Shown here: piece after piece, positions 9,904 through 20,517 of the stretch | How positions within the stretch are numbered: the first letter of the stretch is position 1 | Layout of the letters: every line of letters begins with the position of its first letter | NCBI RefSeq assembly: GCF_037976825.1 | Contig: NZ_CP150269.1 | Location: forward strand, 2,369,501-2,433,500 | Direction: 5' to 3' | From: Paenibacillus sp. FSL K6-1330 | GTDB taxonomy: Bacteria > Bacillota > Bacilli > Paenibacillales > Paenibacillaceae | Length of the DNA stretch: 64,000 nucleotides | Translations under genes and position numbers: made by a program | The notes under the pieces: generated by a model | Told to the model about the DNA's origin: nothing | Databases searched by the model: none | What the model saw: the letters and a program-made list of their open reading frames with translations, nothing else

Positions 9904-10218
9904 TATTGTTGATTTATACAAGAATTCGTTGATGGGAATAGTACGCGAAGGATCTGTCCCTCAGAGAGCCGGCAGTTGCTGAAAGCCCGGCGTTCAGACC
10001 AAGCAGAAGATCATCCCGGAGAAGTGAAGCTGAAGCGTGTAACCGCGTGCGTAAGCTGAACCGTCAGCCGAACGTTACATCGGACCTTGCCTATTACACA
10101 CAGGCATGGACATTGAGGTGTCGCTTGCGCAGGCTTTTTAGCGAAAAGTCGGTTAAGCGAAATTAGGGTGGTAACGCGAGAACAGGTTCTCGTCCCTTGG
10201 GGGATGAGGCCTTTTTTT
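9904..10218 (+). promoter_or_regulatory. T-box riboswitch, isoleucine type
   Basis: This leader lies between its own promoter and ileS and carries the T-box sequence AGGGTGGTAACGCG (10166-10179). Its TGGT bulge is complementary to the ACCA end of uncharged tRNA. An isoleucine specifier ATC (10010-10012, or the adjacent 10013-10015) sits in the expected position on the 3' side of Stem I. The competing terminator has the stem CTCGTCCC / GGGATGAG (10189-10208) and a T-run at 10212-10218. Uncharged tRNA-Ile is expected to stabilise the antiterminator and switch on ileS. One base deviates from the commonest T-box consensus (AAC for ACC). Confidence 0.93.
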
Positions 10219-14954: not shown

Positions 14955-15455
14955 GTGGTGTATTATTTGATTGCATTTGTTTTATTTCTTATCGATCAGG
15001 GAACCAAGTACTTGATTGCCTCGAAGCTGGAGCTTTATGAACAGATCCCTGTGATCGGAGACTTCTTCCTGATTACCTCGAGCCGAAACCGGGGAGCCGC
15101 GTTTGGCATACTGCAGGATCAATTATGGTTCTTCATAGTGGTGACGCTAATCGTTGTGGGCGGGATTGTCTGGTACCTGCGGAAGGTATCGAAAGAAGGA
15201 CGTAAGCTGCTGCCTACGGCTCTTGCGCTTGTACTTGGCGGGGCAATTGGGAACTTCATCGATCGGTTGGTGATGGGAGAGGTTGTCGATTTCCTGCAAT
15301 TTAATTTTGGCAGCTACACATTCCCGATTTTTAATATTGCCGATTCTTGTATTGTCATCGGTGTGGGATTGATCATATTGGATACGCTTCTGGAAGGAAG
15401 ACGCGAGAAGATACAGACAACAAGTGAAGTTTCTGGCACAGAAGGGAATGAATAA
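14955..15455 (+). CDS. lspA: Lipoprotein signal peptidase II
   Basis: LspA is the integral membrane aspartic peptidase that removes signal peptides from prolipoproteins. The 166-residue product has four hydrophobic helices. The catalytic Asp residues lie in GNFIDRLVMGEVVDFL and FNIADSCIVIGVGLII, and the family box SRNRGAAFGIL is present. The start is GTG at 14955, and the candidate ribosome-binding site (CGGAGTG) is about 11 nt upstream. The stop overlaps the start of rluD by one base (TAATG). Its substrates here would include the sugar-binding lipoprotein encoded at 46795. Confidence 0.95.
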   Translation: MVYYLIAFVLFLIDQGTKYLIASKLELYEQIPVIGDFFLITSSRNRGAAFGILQDQLWFFIVVTLIVVGGIVWYLRKVSKEGRKLLPTALALVLGGAIGNFIDRLVMGEVVDFLQFNFGSYTFPIFNIADSCIVIGVGLIILDTLLEGRREKIQTTSEVSGTEGNE

Positions 15456-16426
15456 TGTTGCAAGACGGTATGGATACAGATACGGAATGGACAGGCGAAA
15501 CAGGGCACGAATCCGAAACCTATGAGTGGACGGTGGATGCAGAATCCGCCAAAACCCGTATAGATAAATACATAACAGAGAACCTCGGTGAGAATGTTTC
15601 ACGCTCCCAGGTGCAGTTATGGATTACCGATGGACATGTCATCGTTAATGAAGGTCCGGTTAAGTCTAATTACAAAGTGAGTCAGGGTGACCGCATCCTG
15701 CTGAAGGTTCCTGACCCATCGGCAGTAGAGATTATTCCGGAGGACATCCCGCTAGAGATCGCGTTTGAAGATGCAGACGTCATTGTTGTGAACAAGCCAA
15801 GAGGGATGGTTGTTCATCCGGCTCCTGGTCATTCCTCGGGCACTCTTGTGAACGCATTAATGTTTCACTGCAAGGATTTGTCAGGCATTAACGGTGAACT
15901 CCGGCCTGGCATCGTGCATCGGATTGATAAAGATACAACGGGTCTTATTATGGCAGCGAAGAATGATAAAGCTCATGCTTCTCTTGCGGCTCAGTTGAAG
16001 GATCACAGCGTGAACCGTCGTTATCTGGCTTTGGTTCATGGCAATATGAGTCATGATCAAGGGACCGTTGACGCGCCAATCGGGCGGGATGCACATGATC
16101 GTAAATTGTATACGGTCACGGACCGGAACAGCAAGCATGCGGTAACCCATTTTACCGTCATAGAACGCTTCGGCGATTACACTCTTCTTGAGCTGAAGCT
16201 GGAGACTGGGCGTACGCATCAAATCCGCGTGCATATGAAGTATATCGGCCATCCTCTCGTGGGCGATCCCGTATACGGCAAGAGCAAGGGCATAAAATTG
16301 GACGGCCAAGCCCTTCACGCAGCCGTTTTGGGTTTTGTCCATCCTTCGAGTGGTGAGTATATGGAGTATTCGGCGCCGATGCCGAATGATATGGAAGAAC
16401 TTTTGACGATTCTAAGGGGCCGCTAG
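15455..16426 (+). CDS. rluD: RluA/RluD family pseudouridine synthase (YlyB)
   Basis: This enzyme isomerises uridine to pseudouridine in 23S rRNA. It has an N-terminal S4 domain (TRIDKYITENLGENVSRSQVQLWI) and a catalytic domain with the catalytic Asp at about residue 158 in HRIDKDTTGLIM. The motif EDADVIVVNKPRGMVVHPAPG and the C-terminal TGRTHQIRVHMKYIGHPLVGDPVYG are diagnostic. The 323-residue length is usual. Translation is coupled to lspA through TAATG overlap. The stop codon lies inside a predicted terminator hairpin. Confidence 0.95.
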   Translation: MLQDGMDTDTEWTGETGHESETYEWTVDAESAKTRIDKYITENLGENVSRSQVQLWITDGHVIVNEGPVKSNYKVSQGDRILLKVPDPSAVEIIPEDIPLEIAFEDADVIVVNKPRGMVVHPAPGHSSGTLVNALMFHCKDLSGINGELRPGIVHRIDKDTTGLIMAAKNDKAHASLAAQLKDHSVNRRYLALVHGNMSHDQGTVDAPIGRDAHDRKLYTVTDRNSKHAVTHFTVIERFGDYTLLELKLETGRTHQIRVHMKYIGHPLVGDPVYGKSKGIKLDGQALHAAVLGFVHPSSGEYMEYSAPMPNDMEELLTILRGR

Positions 16427-16519: not shown

Positions 16520-16549
16520 TTGCCATTCCATCCCGGGATATGTTATAGT
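16520..16549 (+). promoter_or_regulatory. Extended -10 promoter of the leader ORF/ABC-F unit
   Basis: TTGCCA (16520-16525), an 18-bp spacer and TATAGT (16544-16549) preceded by TGT give a good sigma-A promoter with an extended -10. Transcription would start near 16556, about 10 nt before a strong ribosome-binding site. Confidence 0.65.
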
Positions 16550-16581
16550 GACGATAACTTTTGATGAAGGAGGTGAGCAGG

Positions 16582-16737
16582 ATGAATATCGAGATGGTTA
16601 ACAACCGTATTAGCCAGCTGCCTTTAGCTATGGCTGGCATTGTTCATGCATTTCTCTACAACGGGAGAGGTCTGTCCAATTTTACCAATACGGTTTGTAC
16701 CATCGCGAGAAGTCACCTGCCTGCCTGCACGGATTAA
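16582..16737 (+). CDS. Putative 51-residue leader peptide upstream of ABC-F gene
   Basis: A short ORF starting ATG AAT ATC with a textbook ribosome-binding site (GAAGGAGGTGAG, ending about 4 nt upstream) just after a good promoter. The predicted peptide begins MNIEMVNNRISQLPLAMAGI and ends TARSHLPACTD-like (IARSHLPACTD). I recognise no domain. Its TAA stop is the first base triplet of a perfect 8-bp hairpin (16735-16752), and a strong intrinsic terminator follows before the ABC-F gene. This order (promoter, short ORF, terminator, ABC-F gene) is the layout of ribosome-mediated attenuation in known antibiotic-inducible ABC-F genes. That it works so here is inference. Confidence 0.55.
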   Translation: MNIEMVNNRISQLPLAMAGIVHAFLYNGRGLSNFTNTVCTIARSHLPACTD

Positions 16738-16796
16738 GCCTATCTAGGCTTACAATTCTTGAAGGGTCCGCGGAGCTTGCTCTGTGGGCCCTTTTT
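16735..16796 (+). terminator. Attenuator-like hairpin pair before ABC-F gene
   Basis: taagccta / taggctta (16735-16742 with 16745-16752) is a perfect 8-bp hairpin starting at the leader stop codon. It is followed by aagggtccgcggag / ctctgtgggccctt (16762-16775 with 16780-16793), a 14-bp stem with three G-U pairs and a T-run. The latter is a convincing intrinsic terminator lying 84 bp upstream of the ABC-F start codon, so transcription into the gene would need antitermination. Confidence 0.75.
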
Positions 16797-16879
16797 GCGT
16801 TTGCAGTCCGGGTCTTCTCCCTAATCTATACGCTCTTCGAACAGGTTGAATGTTCGCAGCATACAGGAGGAAACCTAGA

Positions 16880-18844
16880 ATGAATATAATCAATGTACAG
16901 AAAATGACGCAATACCACGGTGCTCATCTGGTACTGGACCAGATATCGTTTGAAATACAGGAAGGCGAGAAGGTTGCGCTTATTGGAAGGAACGGCAGCG
17001 GGAAGTCGACGCTGATGCGCCTGCTTGCCGGTTTGGATCAGCCAAACGAAGGGCAGCTGGCTATAAAGAAGGGGGCAAAAATCGGATATTTAGAGCAGAT
17101 TCCGAGCCATATGGATACCTGGACGGTGCTGGATGTATTGTCACAGGGGTTGAGTCACTTGAAGGATTACCGAGCGGAAATGACGGAGCTTGAGGAGAAA
17201 ATGAGTGACCCGGACACCGCTGGAAATCCGGAACTGCTCGATCGAGTGCTGCGGAAATACTCAGCGCTTCAGGAGCGGTTTGAAACAGAGGGTGGTTATG
17301 AGCTGGAAGCGAGCATCGACAAAATCGCTTCCGGGCTGCAAATACCCAAGAGCGAGTACGGACTGGCCTTTGGCTCGTTGTCCGGTGGAGAACAAACCCG
17401 TGTCGCGCTGGCATCGCAGCTGATCGTACAGCCGGATTTGCTCTTGCTTGATGAACCGACCAACCATCTGGATTTGGCACGTACGGAATGGCTGGAGGAA
17501 TTCTTACGCGAATATCCGGGAACCTGCGTCATAATCTCTCACGACCGATATTTTCTGGATCGGGTCGTGTCCAAAACGATTGAGCTTGAAGATGGCGAAG
17601 CTTTTACAGCCCATGGTGGCTACACCGCGTTCATGAAAGATAAGGAAGAGCGTTTGTTGCAGCAGTTTGCCGAATATCAGGAGCAGCAGAAAGTAATCAA
17701 GAAGATGAAGGAATCCATCAAGCAGCTTGAAGAGTTCGGCCGGATTGGCGGCAATGAGAAGTTTTTCAAGCGCGCGGCTTCCATGAGACGGGCGCTGGAG
17801 CGGATGGAGCGGGTAAAGAGACCCGTGCTGGAACGAAGACAGGCTGATTTTGAACTGAATCCTCAGGATCGTTCCGGTCGCCGCGTGGCATACTTTGAGC
17901 AAGTTGAGGTTTCTTATGGGAATCAGGCGGTGCTGAGGGGAGCATCCGGTCTAATCGAATTTGGCGAGAAAATTGCACTGATGGGCTCGAACGGTAGCGG
18001 GAAAACAACGCTATTCAAAGTGCTGTTGCGCGAGCTTACGCCTGATTCCGGTTCGCTTGAATGGGGTTCGCGTGTCGATGTAGGCTACCTCGCTCAGCAG
18101 GAGGAACCGGACAATCCGAAGGAAACGGTGCTTCAATATTTCCGGGAGAAGGCTGGAGTAGAAGAGGGAGAAGCTCGAGGAATACTGGCAAGGTATCTGT
18201 TCTATGGTGCGGCCGTGTTCAGATCGGTGGGGCAGTTGTCCGGAGGGGAATGGACACGATTGAGACTCGCGCTGCTAATCCATCAGAAGCCGAACCTGCT
18301 GCTTCTGGATGAACCCACGAACCATCTGGATATTGCCTCCCGTGAAGCATTGGAGGACGCACTGCAGGATTATGCGGGGACCATTCTTGCCATTTCCCAT
18401 GACCGTTATTTCGTGAATCAAGTGTCTCGCAAAGTGTGGGATTTGAATCAAGGGAAGCTGACTGTCTATCATGGGAATTATGATGATTTCCGAGCTAAGA
18501 AAGAACAGCTTGAAGCGGCATTGATAGGAAGGGAGCTATCAGCGGGGAGTGAAGGTATTACCAAACAGAAGGTGGCGCAGCAGCCCCAAGCGAAGGATAG
18601 CCCTGCTCCGCTTTCCAAACGCGTAAACGCGGATCGCTCTTCCGCCGTAAGGTCCAAATGGTTGGAGGAGGAAATTGCTCGTATAGAGTTCCGCATCCGG
18701 CAGCTTGACGACTGGCTCGAGACGGAAGGCGATGATTTACACGAGGATACGGATCTGTCGCTGCTCGAGCAGCGCTGGAACGAGCGGGAGTTGCTATCCG
18801 CGAGTCGTGACGAGCTCCTTGCGGAATGGCTGGAGCTGACTTAA
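16880..18844 (+). CDS. ABC-F family ATPase (ribosome-associated)
   Basis: ABC-F proteins carry two ATPase domains and no membrane part, and act on the ribosomal E site. This 654-residue protein has Walker A GRNGSGKST and GSNGSGKTT, signature LSGGEQTR and LSGGEWTR, and Walker B LLLLDEPTNHLD in both halves. A basic interdomain linker (NEKFFKRAASMRRALERMERVK) and a C-terminal coiled-coil extension are also present. The ATG at 16880 has AGGAGG 9 nt upstream. The length resembles housekeeping YdiF/YfmR/YfmM types rather than the about 500-550 residues of Vga/Lsa/VmlR. The attenuator-like leader, however, argues for inducible expression. The subfamily cannot be fixed by eye. Confidence 0.93.
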   Translation: MNIINVQKMTQYHGAHLVLDQISFEIQEGEKVALIGRNGSGKSTLMRLLAGLDQPNEGQLAIKKGAKIGYLEQIPSHMDTWTVLDVLSQGLSHLKDYRAEMTELEEKMSDPDTAGNPELLDRVLRKYSALQERFETEGGYELEASIDKIASGLQIPKSEYGLAFGSLSGGEQTRVALASQLIVQPDLLLLDEPTNHLDLARTEWLEEFLREYPGTCVIISHDRYFLDRVVSKTIELEDGEAFTAHGGYTAFMKDKEERLLQQFAEYQEQQKVIKKMKESIKQLEEFGRIGGNEKFFKRAASMRRALERMERVKRPVLERRQADFELNPQDRSGRRVAYFEQVEVSYGNQAVLRGASGLIEFGEKIALMGSNGSGKTTLFKVLLRELTPDSGSLEWGSRVDVGYLAQQEEPDNPKETVLQYFREKAGVEEGEARGILARYLFYGAAVFRSVGQLSGGEWTRLRLALLIHQKPNLLLLDEPTNHLDIASREALEDALQDYAGTILAISHDRYFVNQVSRKVWDLNQGKLTVYHGNYDDFRAKKEQLEAALIGRELSAGSEGITKQKVAQQPQAKDSPAPLSKRVNADRSSAVRSKWLEEEIARIEFRIRQLDDWLETEGDDLHEDTDLSLLEQRWNERELLSASRDELLAEWLELT

Positions 18845-18960: not shown

Positions 18961-20214
18961 ATGAGTATGGATAAATATCAGGAAACGTACATTCAACAGA
19001 GCTTCGCCAACCGGATCGGCGGTGCTAATTATGGCAAAGATACAGCCATTTATAAATTCGAGAAGATCAAAAGAGCGAAGGCTGCTGCGAAGCAGGAACA
19101 CCCTGGCACGGAGCTGATCGATATGGGAGTTGGCGAGCCGGATGAGATGGCGGATGCAGGCATCGTGGCGAAGCTGGCAGAAGAAGCGGCAAAGCGGGAA
19201 AACCGCGGTTATGCGGATAACGGAATTCCGGAGTTCAAGGAAGCGGCTGTTCGCTACTTGAAGAATGTATTTGGTGTTGAAGGCATTGATGCCGCTACAG
19301 AAGTTCTGCACTCCATCGGTTCCAAGCCGGCACTGGCCATGCTGCCGTCCTGCTTCATTAATCCTGGGGACATCACCATCATGACGGTTCCCGGATATCC
19401 TGTACTCGGCACGCATACCAAGTACTTGGGCGGCGAAGTTTACAATGTGGAGCTGAAAAAAGAGAATGGATTTCTGCCGGATCTCAACTCGATCCCTGAG
19501 GACATTGCACGCCGTGCCAAACTGCTCTACCTGAACTATCCGAACAACCCGACGGGTGCCAGCGCAACGGCCGAGTTTTTCACCGAGGTTGTCGAGTGGG
19601 CCCGCAAGTATGGCGTTGTTGTTGTCCATGACGCTCCTTATGCAGCGCTCACTTACGATGGCTTAAAGCCGCTCAGCTTTCTCTCCGTCCCCGGCGCGAA
19701 AGATGTTGGGGTAGAGCTTCACTCCCTGTCCAAATCTTATAACATGACAGGATGGCGCATTGGTTTCATCTCCGGTAACCCGCTAGTAGTTAAGGCCTTT
19801 GGTGATGTGAAGGACAACAACGATTCCGGACAATTCATAGCCATTCAAAAAGCTGCCGCATACGGTCTGGACAATCCGCAAATTACGGAGAAGATTGCTG
19901 AGAAGTATTCCCGTCGCCACAACATGCTGGTAGACGTGTTGAACGGACTTGGTTTTACGGCCGAGAAGCCGAAGGGTTCCTTCTTCCTCTACGTTGAGGC
20001 TCCAAAAGGCGTTAAAGGCGGACGCCGTTTTGAATCCGGCGAAGATTTCTCACAATATCTGATTCGCGAGAAATTGATCTCGACCGTACCATGGGATGAT
20101 GCGGGACACTTCGTACGCTTCTCCGTAACCTTTATTGCTGATGGCGAGGAAGAAGAGAAACGCGTCATTTCCGAAATTCGCAGAAGACTTAGCGATGTAG
20201 AATTTGAATTCTAA
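18961..20214 (+). CDS. dapL: LL-diaminopimelate aminotransferase
   Basis: DapL converts tetrahydrodipicolinate directly to LL-diaminopimelate with glutamate as amino donor, a one-step branch of lysine and peptidoglycan precursor synthesis. The 417-residue class I/II aminotransferase has the PLP lysine at about residue 258 in SLSKSYNMTGWRIG, plus DMGVGEPDE, GYADNGIPEFK and LYLNYPNNPTGA. These substrate-pocket motifs separate DapL from aspartate or alanine aminotransferases. The ATG at 18961 has AGGAGATG about 12 nt upstream, a longer than ideal spacing. B. subtilis uses the acetylated dap route instead, so this gene is a marker for Paenibacillus-like lineages. Confidence 0.93.
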   Translation: MSMDKYQETYIQQSFANRIGGANYGKDTAIYKFEKIKRAKAAAKQEHPGTELIDMGVGEPDEMADAGIVAKLAEEAAKRENRGYADNGIPEFKEAAVRYLKNVFGVEGIDAATEVLHSIGSKPALAMLPSCFINPGDITIMTVPGYPVLGTHTKYLGGEVYNVELKKENGFLPDLNSIPEDIARRAKLLYLNYPNNPTGASATAEFFTEVVEWARKYGVVVVHDAPYAALTYDGLKPLSFLSVPGAKDVGVELHSLSKSYNMTGWRIGFISGNPLVVKAFGDVKDNNDSGQFIAIQKAAAYGLDNPQITEKIAEKYSRRHNMLVDVLNGLGFTAEKPKGSFFLYVEAPKGVKGGRRFESGEDFSQYLIREKLISTVPWDDAGHFVRFSVTFIADGEEEEKRVISEIRRRLSDVEFEF

Positions 20215-20296: not shown

Positions 20297-20312
20297 GGGA
20301 TCAATCGAATAG

Positions 20313-20462
20313 CACCTTTAAATCAGTCCCGTGAGGCTGGCAAGGTAACGTGAACCGAGGTTCATTAACAGGAGGCATGGCTCTGTCTGCGGATAGATGC
20401 TGCGCTTTCGACACTATCTCTATGAGATCAACTCCTTGTCCAGCCGGGCAAGGAGTTTTTTT
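20313..20462 (+). promoter_or_regulatory. PyrR-dependent pyr attenuator
   Basis: The conserved PyrR-binding loop AGTCCCGTGAGGCT (20325-20338) is presented on a stem closed by acctt / aaggt (20314-20345); this is the anti-antiterminator. Downstream, aactccttg / caaggagtt (about 20430-20457) followed by eight T is the terminator. With UMP bound, PyrR should stabilise the binding loop and favour termination before pyrR. I see no second copy in the pyrR-pyrB junction, which is only 2 bp, so the operon appears to have one attenuator rather than the three of B. subtilis. Confidence 0.92.
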
Positions 20463-20517
20463 GTGTGTAATGAACTCACGGATCGTCTGAACTAAAGAGG
20501 GCTAATCAAACGTTTAG

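Follow-up and report, generated by a model that had tools for sequence, protein, structure and literature searches.

What controls the ABC-F gene of Paenibacillus sp. FSL K6-1330, and might the region in front of it respond to antibiotics? The gene lies in a 64,000-nt stretch of contig NZ_CP150269.1 (positions 2,369,501–2,433,500), referred to below as the window. The first-pass annotation of the window had listed, upstream of this gene, an extended -10 promoter, a Shine-Dalgarno (SD) sequence with a 51-codon open reading frame (ORF), a hairpin at the stop codon and an intrinsic terminator, and had proposed that they form a drug-responsive attenuator. All these elements were found in the sequence in that order (Table 1), the promoter as a promoter-like site; the terminator is present, its stem having 15 pairs by scan rather than the 14 reported. 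Positions 16553–16800 form a conserved leader that probably controls the ABC-F gene by transcription attenuation in response to the state of a ribosome, and that is built on an 18-base core at which RNA polymerase is predicted to pause. The finding is sound and larger than stated, the window holding one member of a set of Bacilli leaders that share a nucleotide signal.

The leader ORF and its conserved core

In the window, the core (AACGGGAGAGGTCTGTCC) sits inside the leader ORF. The window has a single copy of this 18-mer, against a chance expectation of 0.02 when up to one mismatch is allowed. The conservation of the core was followed in a sample of 100 genomes of the genus, 93 of which were examined for the core upstream of the ABC-F gene, and in 398 genomes of the class Bacilli. 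Within the genus, 81 genomes carry the 15-base core ahead of the ABC-F gene with all 15 positions matching, and seven more with 14 of 15 (88 of the 93), so that the combination, earlier described as unusual, is a common one. A longer pattern, AACGGGANNNGTVTGYCCNTTTTT, written from leaders already seen, gave 76 matches in 70 of the class genomes, and its reversed control gave none. Outside the Bacilli, the 18-mer was not enriched (13 matches in 382 genomes versus 11 for the reversed control). The attenuator proposal had been given a test beforehand, namely whether relatives keep the short ORF and its structure, and the leader passed it: at the level of sequence, the core, the leader ORF, the terminator and the complementarity called P1 below are demonstrably conserved.

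The predicted fold of the window's leader RNA was better than those of all 100 shuffled versions (z -5.3). Scans of the window gave six promoter-like sites (3.3 expected) and four terminator-like sites (3.2 expected); such scans are not decisive on their own, whereas conservation is. The near-random frequency of these sites would suit an ordinary conserved rluD intergenic terminator followed by a constitutively expressed ABC-F gene, with the ORF being incidental. This is scarcely credible, since the ORF, the core and P1 are also conserved at loci with no adjoining rluD or dapL. These two neighbours (rluD upstream, dapL downstream) were kept in 13 of 13 close orthologs (at least 63% identity) and were seen at none of 17 other compared loci (1.5-kb flanks in both cases).

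The window's leader ORF is homologous to the family NF041642 (RAxF-45), although its peptide falls just under the family cut-off of 27 bits (26.5 bits for the protein, 25.8 when the genome was searched); a genome of the same species (G070) scored 28.8, above the cut-off. Matches to RAxF-45 at E 0.1 were present in 91 of the 100 genus genomes, some of them not at the ABC-F gene. An ABC-F gene followed the leader at 28 of the 30 genus loci read (L031, L035–L063; L050 and L051 are contig ends), at all 30 of the best-scoring class loci (L064–L093) and at 29 of 31 further class loci from the same list (L143–L173). One RAxF peptide searched against plasmids gave no matches. At one locus (L279), a RAxF-type leader and core precede an MFS-like transporter, not an ABC-F gene; the transporter had no NCBIfam match at E 1e-30.

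The RAxF leaders terminate in NGxx[LMV][SP]FF, whose DNA form is AACGGGANNNGTVTGYCC followed by T-rich sequence, while the N-terminus is variable and only [I/K][F/T/V]H recurs at codons -7 to -5. Codon use was counted in leaders picked by protein criteria (139 loci, with 120 leaders found and 19 not found; 50 nonredundant). In these 50 leaders, Asn was encoded by AAC (39/39), Gly by GGG (48/50), Ser by AGT (23/23) or TCC (31/33), Arg by CGT (20/20), Leu by CTG (30/30), Phe by TTT (28/28) and Ile by ATT (18/18). The core was present at 14 or 15 of its 15 positions in 48 of them, and the remaining two read the same core in a shifted frame. Further, in two genera of one family (f17), the leader ORF stops just before the core, and the core is still kept. 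The use of nearly one codon per residue, plus the ORFs that end before the core, establish, as far as sequence comparison goes, that selection on the core acts at the nucleotide level.

On this codon evidence, the RAxF-45 ‘protein family’ of NCBI is largely the translated core element: it is curated as a protein family, yet its motif is constrained as DNA. RAxF-45 is very unlikely to be a functional small protein whose place in front of ABC-F genes is a coincidence. Its curation by NCBIfam, and the retention of I, F/T/V and H at codons -7 to -5, where Ile and Thr vary somewhat in their synonymous codons, would be expected of a protein, but the C-terminal motif shows almost no synonymous variation, ORFs that end before the motif keep it as DNA, and other leader classes read it in another frame or carry it outside the leader ORF.

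Some other occurrences of the core were not taken as leaders. The window's genome has one more exact copy of the 18-mer (AACGGGATAAGTCTGTCC; L347; G000:C1:4695432-4695449), which has no T-run, apparently lies inside a coding start and is probably due to chance; six other 15-mer matches in this genome were, by eye, coding or unrelated sequence. At L174, L213, L250 and L271, a core-like AACGGGATTCGTATGCCC stands behind tgtggat or tgtggac and after a shared gene end (...ALGRIKE...EKMRSLV in those read); these sites were set aside on account of this common, unrelated gene end upstream, and perhaps mark the end of a mobile element.

The core ahead of other resistance genes

A scan of named genomes for the core (at least 120 stretches), together with two viral contigs, provided 122 cores for analysis; the downstream gene was taken to be the first ORF of at least 140 codons within 1.5 kb of the core. 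Among the matches listed, such an ORF was found for 111 of the 122 cores, the genes being ABC-F (78), Erm-like (9), RlmA-like (8), Mph-like (4), Mef-like (3), FexA-like (2) and seven singletons, one of them CatB-like. Representatives of Erm, FexA and Msr, and of Cfr at a separate locus (L175), scored above NCBIfam cut-offs; those of Mph, Mef, RlmA and CatB scored under them and are hence called ‘-like’. By leader class (class 1 being that of the window), the matches listed comprised 62 class 1, 38 class 2 and six class 3 cores, plus 16 unassigned cores that include likely chance or unrelated matches. The class 1 cores among them preceded an ABC-F gene in 56 cases and an MFS gene in one, with no downstream gene found for the other five.

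The leader peptides differ among these loci. Some pattern matches carry the leader MTHSxRLRFPTLNQ, which we take to be that of ErmD/ErmK and which precedes an annotated ErmD in a B. licheniformis plasmid, and in a third leader group the core is translated in a different frame, giving TGxVCPF. Leaders of the presumed ErmD/ErmK type (MTHSMRLRFPTLNQ) resemble that of the window in having the core and an SD-complementary stretch; unlike it, their ORF finishes about 39 nt before the core and their anti-SD arm takes in the T-run. The region of the fexA leader matched 161 PLSDB records (105 from Enterococcus and 26 from Staphylococcus), and the core was confirmed in the fexA leader of one S. aureus plasmid. 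On these comparisons, resistance genes of several unrelated kinds evidently share the core, which stands behind leader peptides that differ.

Two plasmids labelled Stenotrophomonas rhizophila (CP031730.1 and CP065518.1, around 218126-218275) showed an 86% match to the RLRFPTLNQ-type leader region, reflecting either mislabelling or transfer. At L233, L268, L299, L306 and L219, the core is accompanied by other short ORFs (e.g. ...LSTVxxRxLA), or by none that could be assigned, before ABC-F-like or CatB-like genes, which suggests additional leader classes.

Because the leader ORF and its structure are conserved, and the core lies ahead of genes that NCBIfam names Erm, Cfr, FexA and Msr, a drug-responsive attenuator is the best reading of the window's leader, and to that extent the original proposal held; its antitermination step fared less well (see below). 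The leader might instead be a real attenuator that senses a general slowing of translation, caused by amino-acid shortage or ribosome defects, and not a drug. This seems improbable. The N-terminus of the peptide is variable, a drug-specific arrest motif is not proven, and an ABC-F match was present in all 100 genus genomes, so that the gene looks chromosomal and common, all of which would agree with such a sensor; however, Erm, Cfr, FexA and Msr all confer resistance to ribosome-targeting drugs, and a run of identical regulatory codons was not seen in the window's ORF.

We incline to a wider view, in which one portable nucleotide signal (GGGANNNGUVUGYCC followed by a U-run), linked with a clamp that acts on the leader's own SD, would be the common transcription-translation synchroniser of Bacilli leaders for resistance to ribosome-targeting drugs. 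Unrelated peptides of the RAxF, RLRFPTLNQ and TGxVCPF types would be plugged into it before ABC-F, Erm, RlmA-like, Mph-like, Mef-like, FexA, Cfr and CatB-like genes, and RAxF-45 and the Listeria RNA rliI would be pieces of it. Drug-inducible leaders are usually studied gene by gene, and a shared signal would offer a single handle for finding inducible resistance genes from DNA. If true, it could explain how ribosome and polymerase are kept in step despite different arrest peptides, and it would change the classification both of a curated protein family and of an orphan RNA of Listeria. The one element would also allow the pausing model to be tested in many contexts, including the fexA leader on staphylococcal and enterococcal plasmids. 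Among the literature matches listed, the core strings were not found and ‘RAxF’ occurred only inside other words; few subscription papers were covered, and absence from print is not claimed.

The link to rliI (RF01487) came from sub-threshold matches over three of the 12 leaders searched. At E 0.001, 20 rliI-like matches were found across the 398 class genomes, 17 of them from one genus and all under the gathering score; every one holds the core, with 19 to 21 of its 21 positions matching. The best score among relatives was 39 bits; the window gave no match at the gathering score of 45, and its own genome none at E 0.001. According to a review (PMC8079631), rliI was marked out by term-seq as a putative conditional terminator for the ABC ATP-binding gene lmo2760, an arrangement similar to that of the window, whose core all 20 matches share. 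Unlike the window's leader, rliI carries a small-RNA annotation and has proposed targets in trans; the likeness is that of the rliI-like matches in the class genomes.

Predicted pausing at the core, helix P1 and the proposed switch

That the core pauses RNA polymerase is predicted by analogy. NusG-dependent pauses are laid out as a short hairpin directly abutting a T-rich motif, and the spacing of GG, T and YG in the core resembles the elemental pause signal G-10, Y-1 G+1 (both as described in PMC12288461). Of 86 nonredundant cores, 85 are able to form at least three pairs, and the T-run that follows is TTTTTT in 36 and ATTTTT in 19. The core could also be a weak intrinsic terminator, as its GG(G)...CC can pair and a T-run is often next to it, or a protein-binding site, as its invariant GT and TG are not explained by pairing and suggest sequence-specific recognition. 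Both alternatives are unlikely. Three or four pairs are few for efficient termination, 216 of 226 leaders have a stronger terminator downstream, no more than 330 nt from the core (53 of 226 for dinucleotide-shuffled stretches), the T-run of the window is interrupted, and a hairpin directly next to a T-rich motif matches the layout described above for NusG-dependent pauses. The 330-nt terminator finder missed the window's own terminator, which the separate window scan lists.

At L186 (1340-1525), the core lies 15 bases past an FMN riboswitch aptamer; by eye, 20 loci of the same genus (L370–L389) keep the GGG...CC hairpin and T-run, several with changed core bases. The review that describes the NusG layout counts the FMN riboswitch leader ribD among the cases of NusG pausing (PMC12288461). 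The likeness in layout and this riboswitch case support a pause, without proving it.

The SD/start region of the leader is complementary to a stretch beyond the core, and the two would form helix P1. In the window this stretch is the last part of the ORF, elsewhere it lies after the ORF, and in class 2 it falls directly on the T-run. P1 was assessed by swapping, the pairing with a leader's own stretch being compared with that to the stretches of other leaders. For 123 nonredundant class 1 leaders, the mean was -25.7 kcal/mol for own and -19.8 for swapped stretches; own pairing was the stronger in 13192 of 15006 comparisons, and none of 2000 permutations did as well. For the window itself, eight of 122 swaps were equally strong. 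In class 3 (n = 9), own pairing was stronger in 61 of 72 comparisons.

Put together, these elements suggest the following mechanism. On reaching the core, RNA polymerase would pause with the anti-SD arm of P1 still to be made, giving a ribosome time to load and to start the leader ORF before the SD is sequestered. With no drug present, the ribosome would finish the ORF, P1 would close over the SD, and the terminator would halt transcription. A leader ribosome stalled by a drug would keep P1 open, and its freed 3′ arm could then pair with the 5′ arm of the terminator around hairpin H2, allowing the ABC-F gene to be transcribed. In predicted folds of the window RNA ending at the terminator 5′ arm, P1 formed when the start was left free, and the 3′ arm of P1 paired with the terminator arm around an apical H2 when the start was masked. 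Constrained folds of 162 class 1 leaders gave at least five bases paired to the terminator arm in 121 cases when masked and in 45 when free.

A number of observations speak against this picture. Five of the 93 genus genomes have no core at 14 of 15 positions (these score 12), and earlier codon counts were partly circular, their loci having been picked by the DNA core, and were superseded by the protein-picked set. The window's T-run is AATTTT, so that the TTNTTT motif of NusG-dependent pauses is lacking, and covariation of the pairs inside the core is not significant. RNAalifold on 35 leaders gave a consensus without P1, since the register of this helix differs from one subclade to the next, and swap tests were used instead; in class 2 (n = 46), the swap test hardly discriminates (325 of 552 comparisons) because the SD-complementary stretch is nearly invariant. 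The remainder concern antitermination. At equilibrium, the full-length window RNA keeps its terminator under every masked ribosome position. In the pooled duplex test of the class 1 antiterminator, own pairing (-8.75) was close to swapped (-8.43) and shuffled (-8.51) pairing, and was the stronger in only 1178 of 2415 comparisons. In the masked class 1 folds, shuffled terminator arms also gave pairing of at least five bases in 63% of cases, and in the window, shuffled arms paired more (mean 14.0) than the real arm (11). Masking had no effect on terminator-arm pairing in class 2 (5 of 37 both masked and free).

Since the pooled duplex test was null, the window negative and the terminator favoured at equilibrium, the antiterminator step is the weakest part of the mechanism. 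Such pairing is poorly supported, and with class 2 showing no effect it was dropped as a general feature and kept as an inference. Of the mutually exclusive fold suggested at the outset, there remains a modest enrichment in the constrained folds of class 1.

As in the ABC-F attenuators controlled by an upstream ORF (vmlR, lmo0919 and cplR kind), the window has a conserved short ORF with an SD, and an intrinsic terminator between this ORF and the gene. The published models provide the logic for the two halves of the mechanism, tlrB that of the pause and vmlR that of the switch. For vmlR of B. subtilis, the model described comprises an anti-antiterminator, a hairpin at the antiterminator apex and a terminator (PMC9226507); its upstream ORF lies inside the anti-antiterminator helix, and the order of hairpin and terminator with a pause site in between is that of the window, where the pause is predicted. 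The two differ in that the vmlR ORF encodes the tripeptide MIN with its SD ahead of the helix, while in the window a 51-codon ORF has its SD and start as a helix arm; the 18-base core is not among the vmlR features described in the accessible part of that paper, and the window has no TTNTTT. In tlrB (yxjB) of B. subtilis, also a case of transcription attenuation before a resistance gene, pausing is reported to let leader translation begin, as it must, before completion of a hairpin that also blocks the leader (PMC6851288); the tlrB leader has nine codons (MIIQFIRYR) compared with 51 in the window.

The ABC-F gene and other features of the window

The ABC-F protein passes NF000355, the general ribosomal-protection-like family of NCBIfam (475.8 bits; cut-off 380), and falls far under every cut-off of the named NCBIfam resistance subfamilies Vga, Msr, Lsa, Sal, OptrA and CplR. 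Among solved structures, EttA was nearest (302 bits), followed by 6ha8 (239), PoxtA (230) and 8buu (229). The structure 6ha8 is listed as ExpZ and is presumably VmlR. Entry 8buu was deposited with PMC10201436.

Table 1. Leader, ABC-F gene and flanking genes, by position in the window
Feature	Position	Strand	Basis or remark
RluA-family pseudouridine synthase (rluD-like), flanking gene	15455..16426	+	
Promoter-like site TTGCCA-18 nt-TATAGT, TG before -10	16520..16549	+	Consensus match only
P1 5′ arm (leader SD/start region)	16569..16597, approximate limits	+	Minimum free energy fold, complementarity tests
Leader ORF, 51 codons + TAA, SD aaggaggtgagcagg, RAxF-45-like peptide	16582..16737	+	
Conserved core AACGGGAGAGGTCTGTCC, then AATTTT; predicted RNA polymerase pause signal	16660..16677	+	
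P1 3′ arm (anti-SD of leader), at leader ORF end	16705..16729, approximate limits	+	Fold, complementarity tests
Hairpin H2 AAGCCTATCTAGGCTT, begins at leader stop codon	16736..16751	+	
Intrinsic terminator hairpin, then T-run	16761..16794	+	15 pairs by scan
ABC-F gene, ATG at 16880 behind aggagg, 654 aa, ribosomal-protection-like	16880..18844	+	
dapL, LL-diaminopimelate aminotransferase, flanking gene	18961..20214	+	NF004937, 730.9 bits

By eye, GGTCTTCTCC looked able to sequester the SD of the ABC-F gene, but this idea was dropped, as 76 of 100 shuffles paired as strongly in the window; of 13 loci tested, only L012 gave a clear result (0 of 100 shuffles), with L010 at 8 and L013 at 10. The window also contains a T-box leader (9920-10200) and a PyrR-binding element (20311-20464), both of which exceed their Rfam cut-offs and are ordinary regulators.

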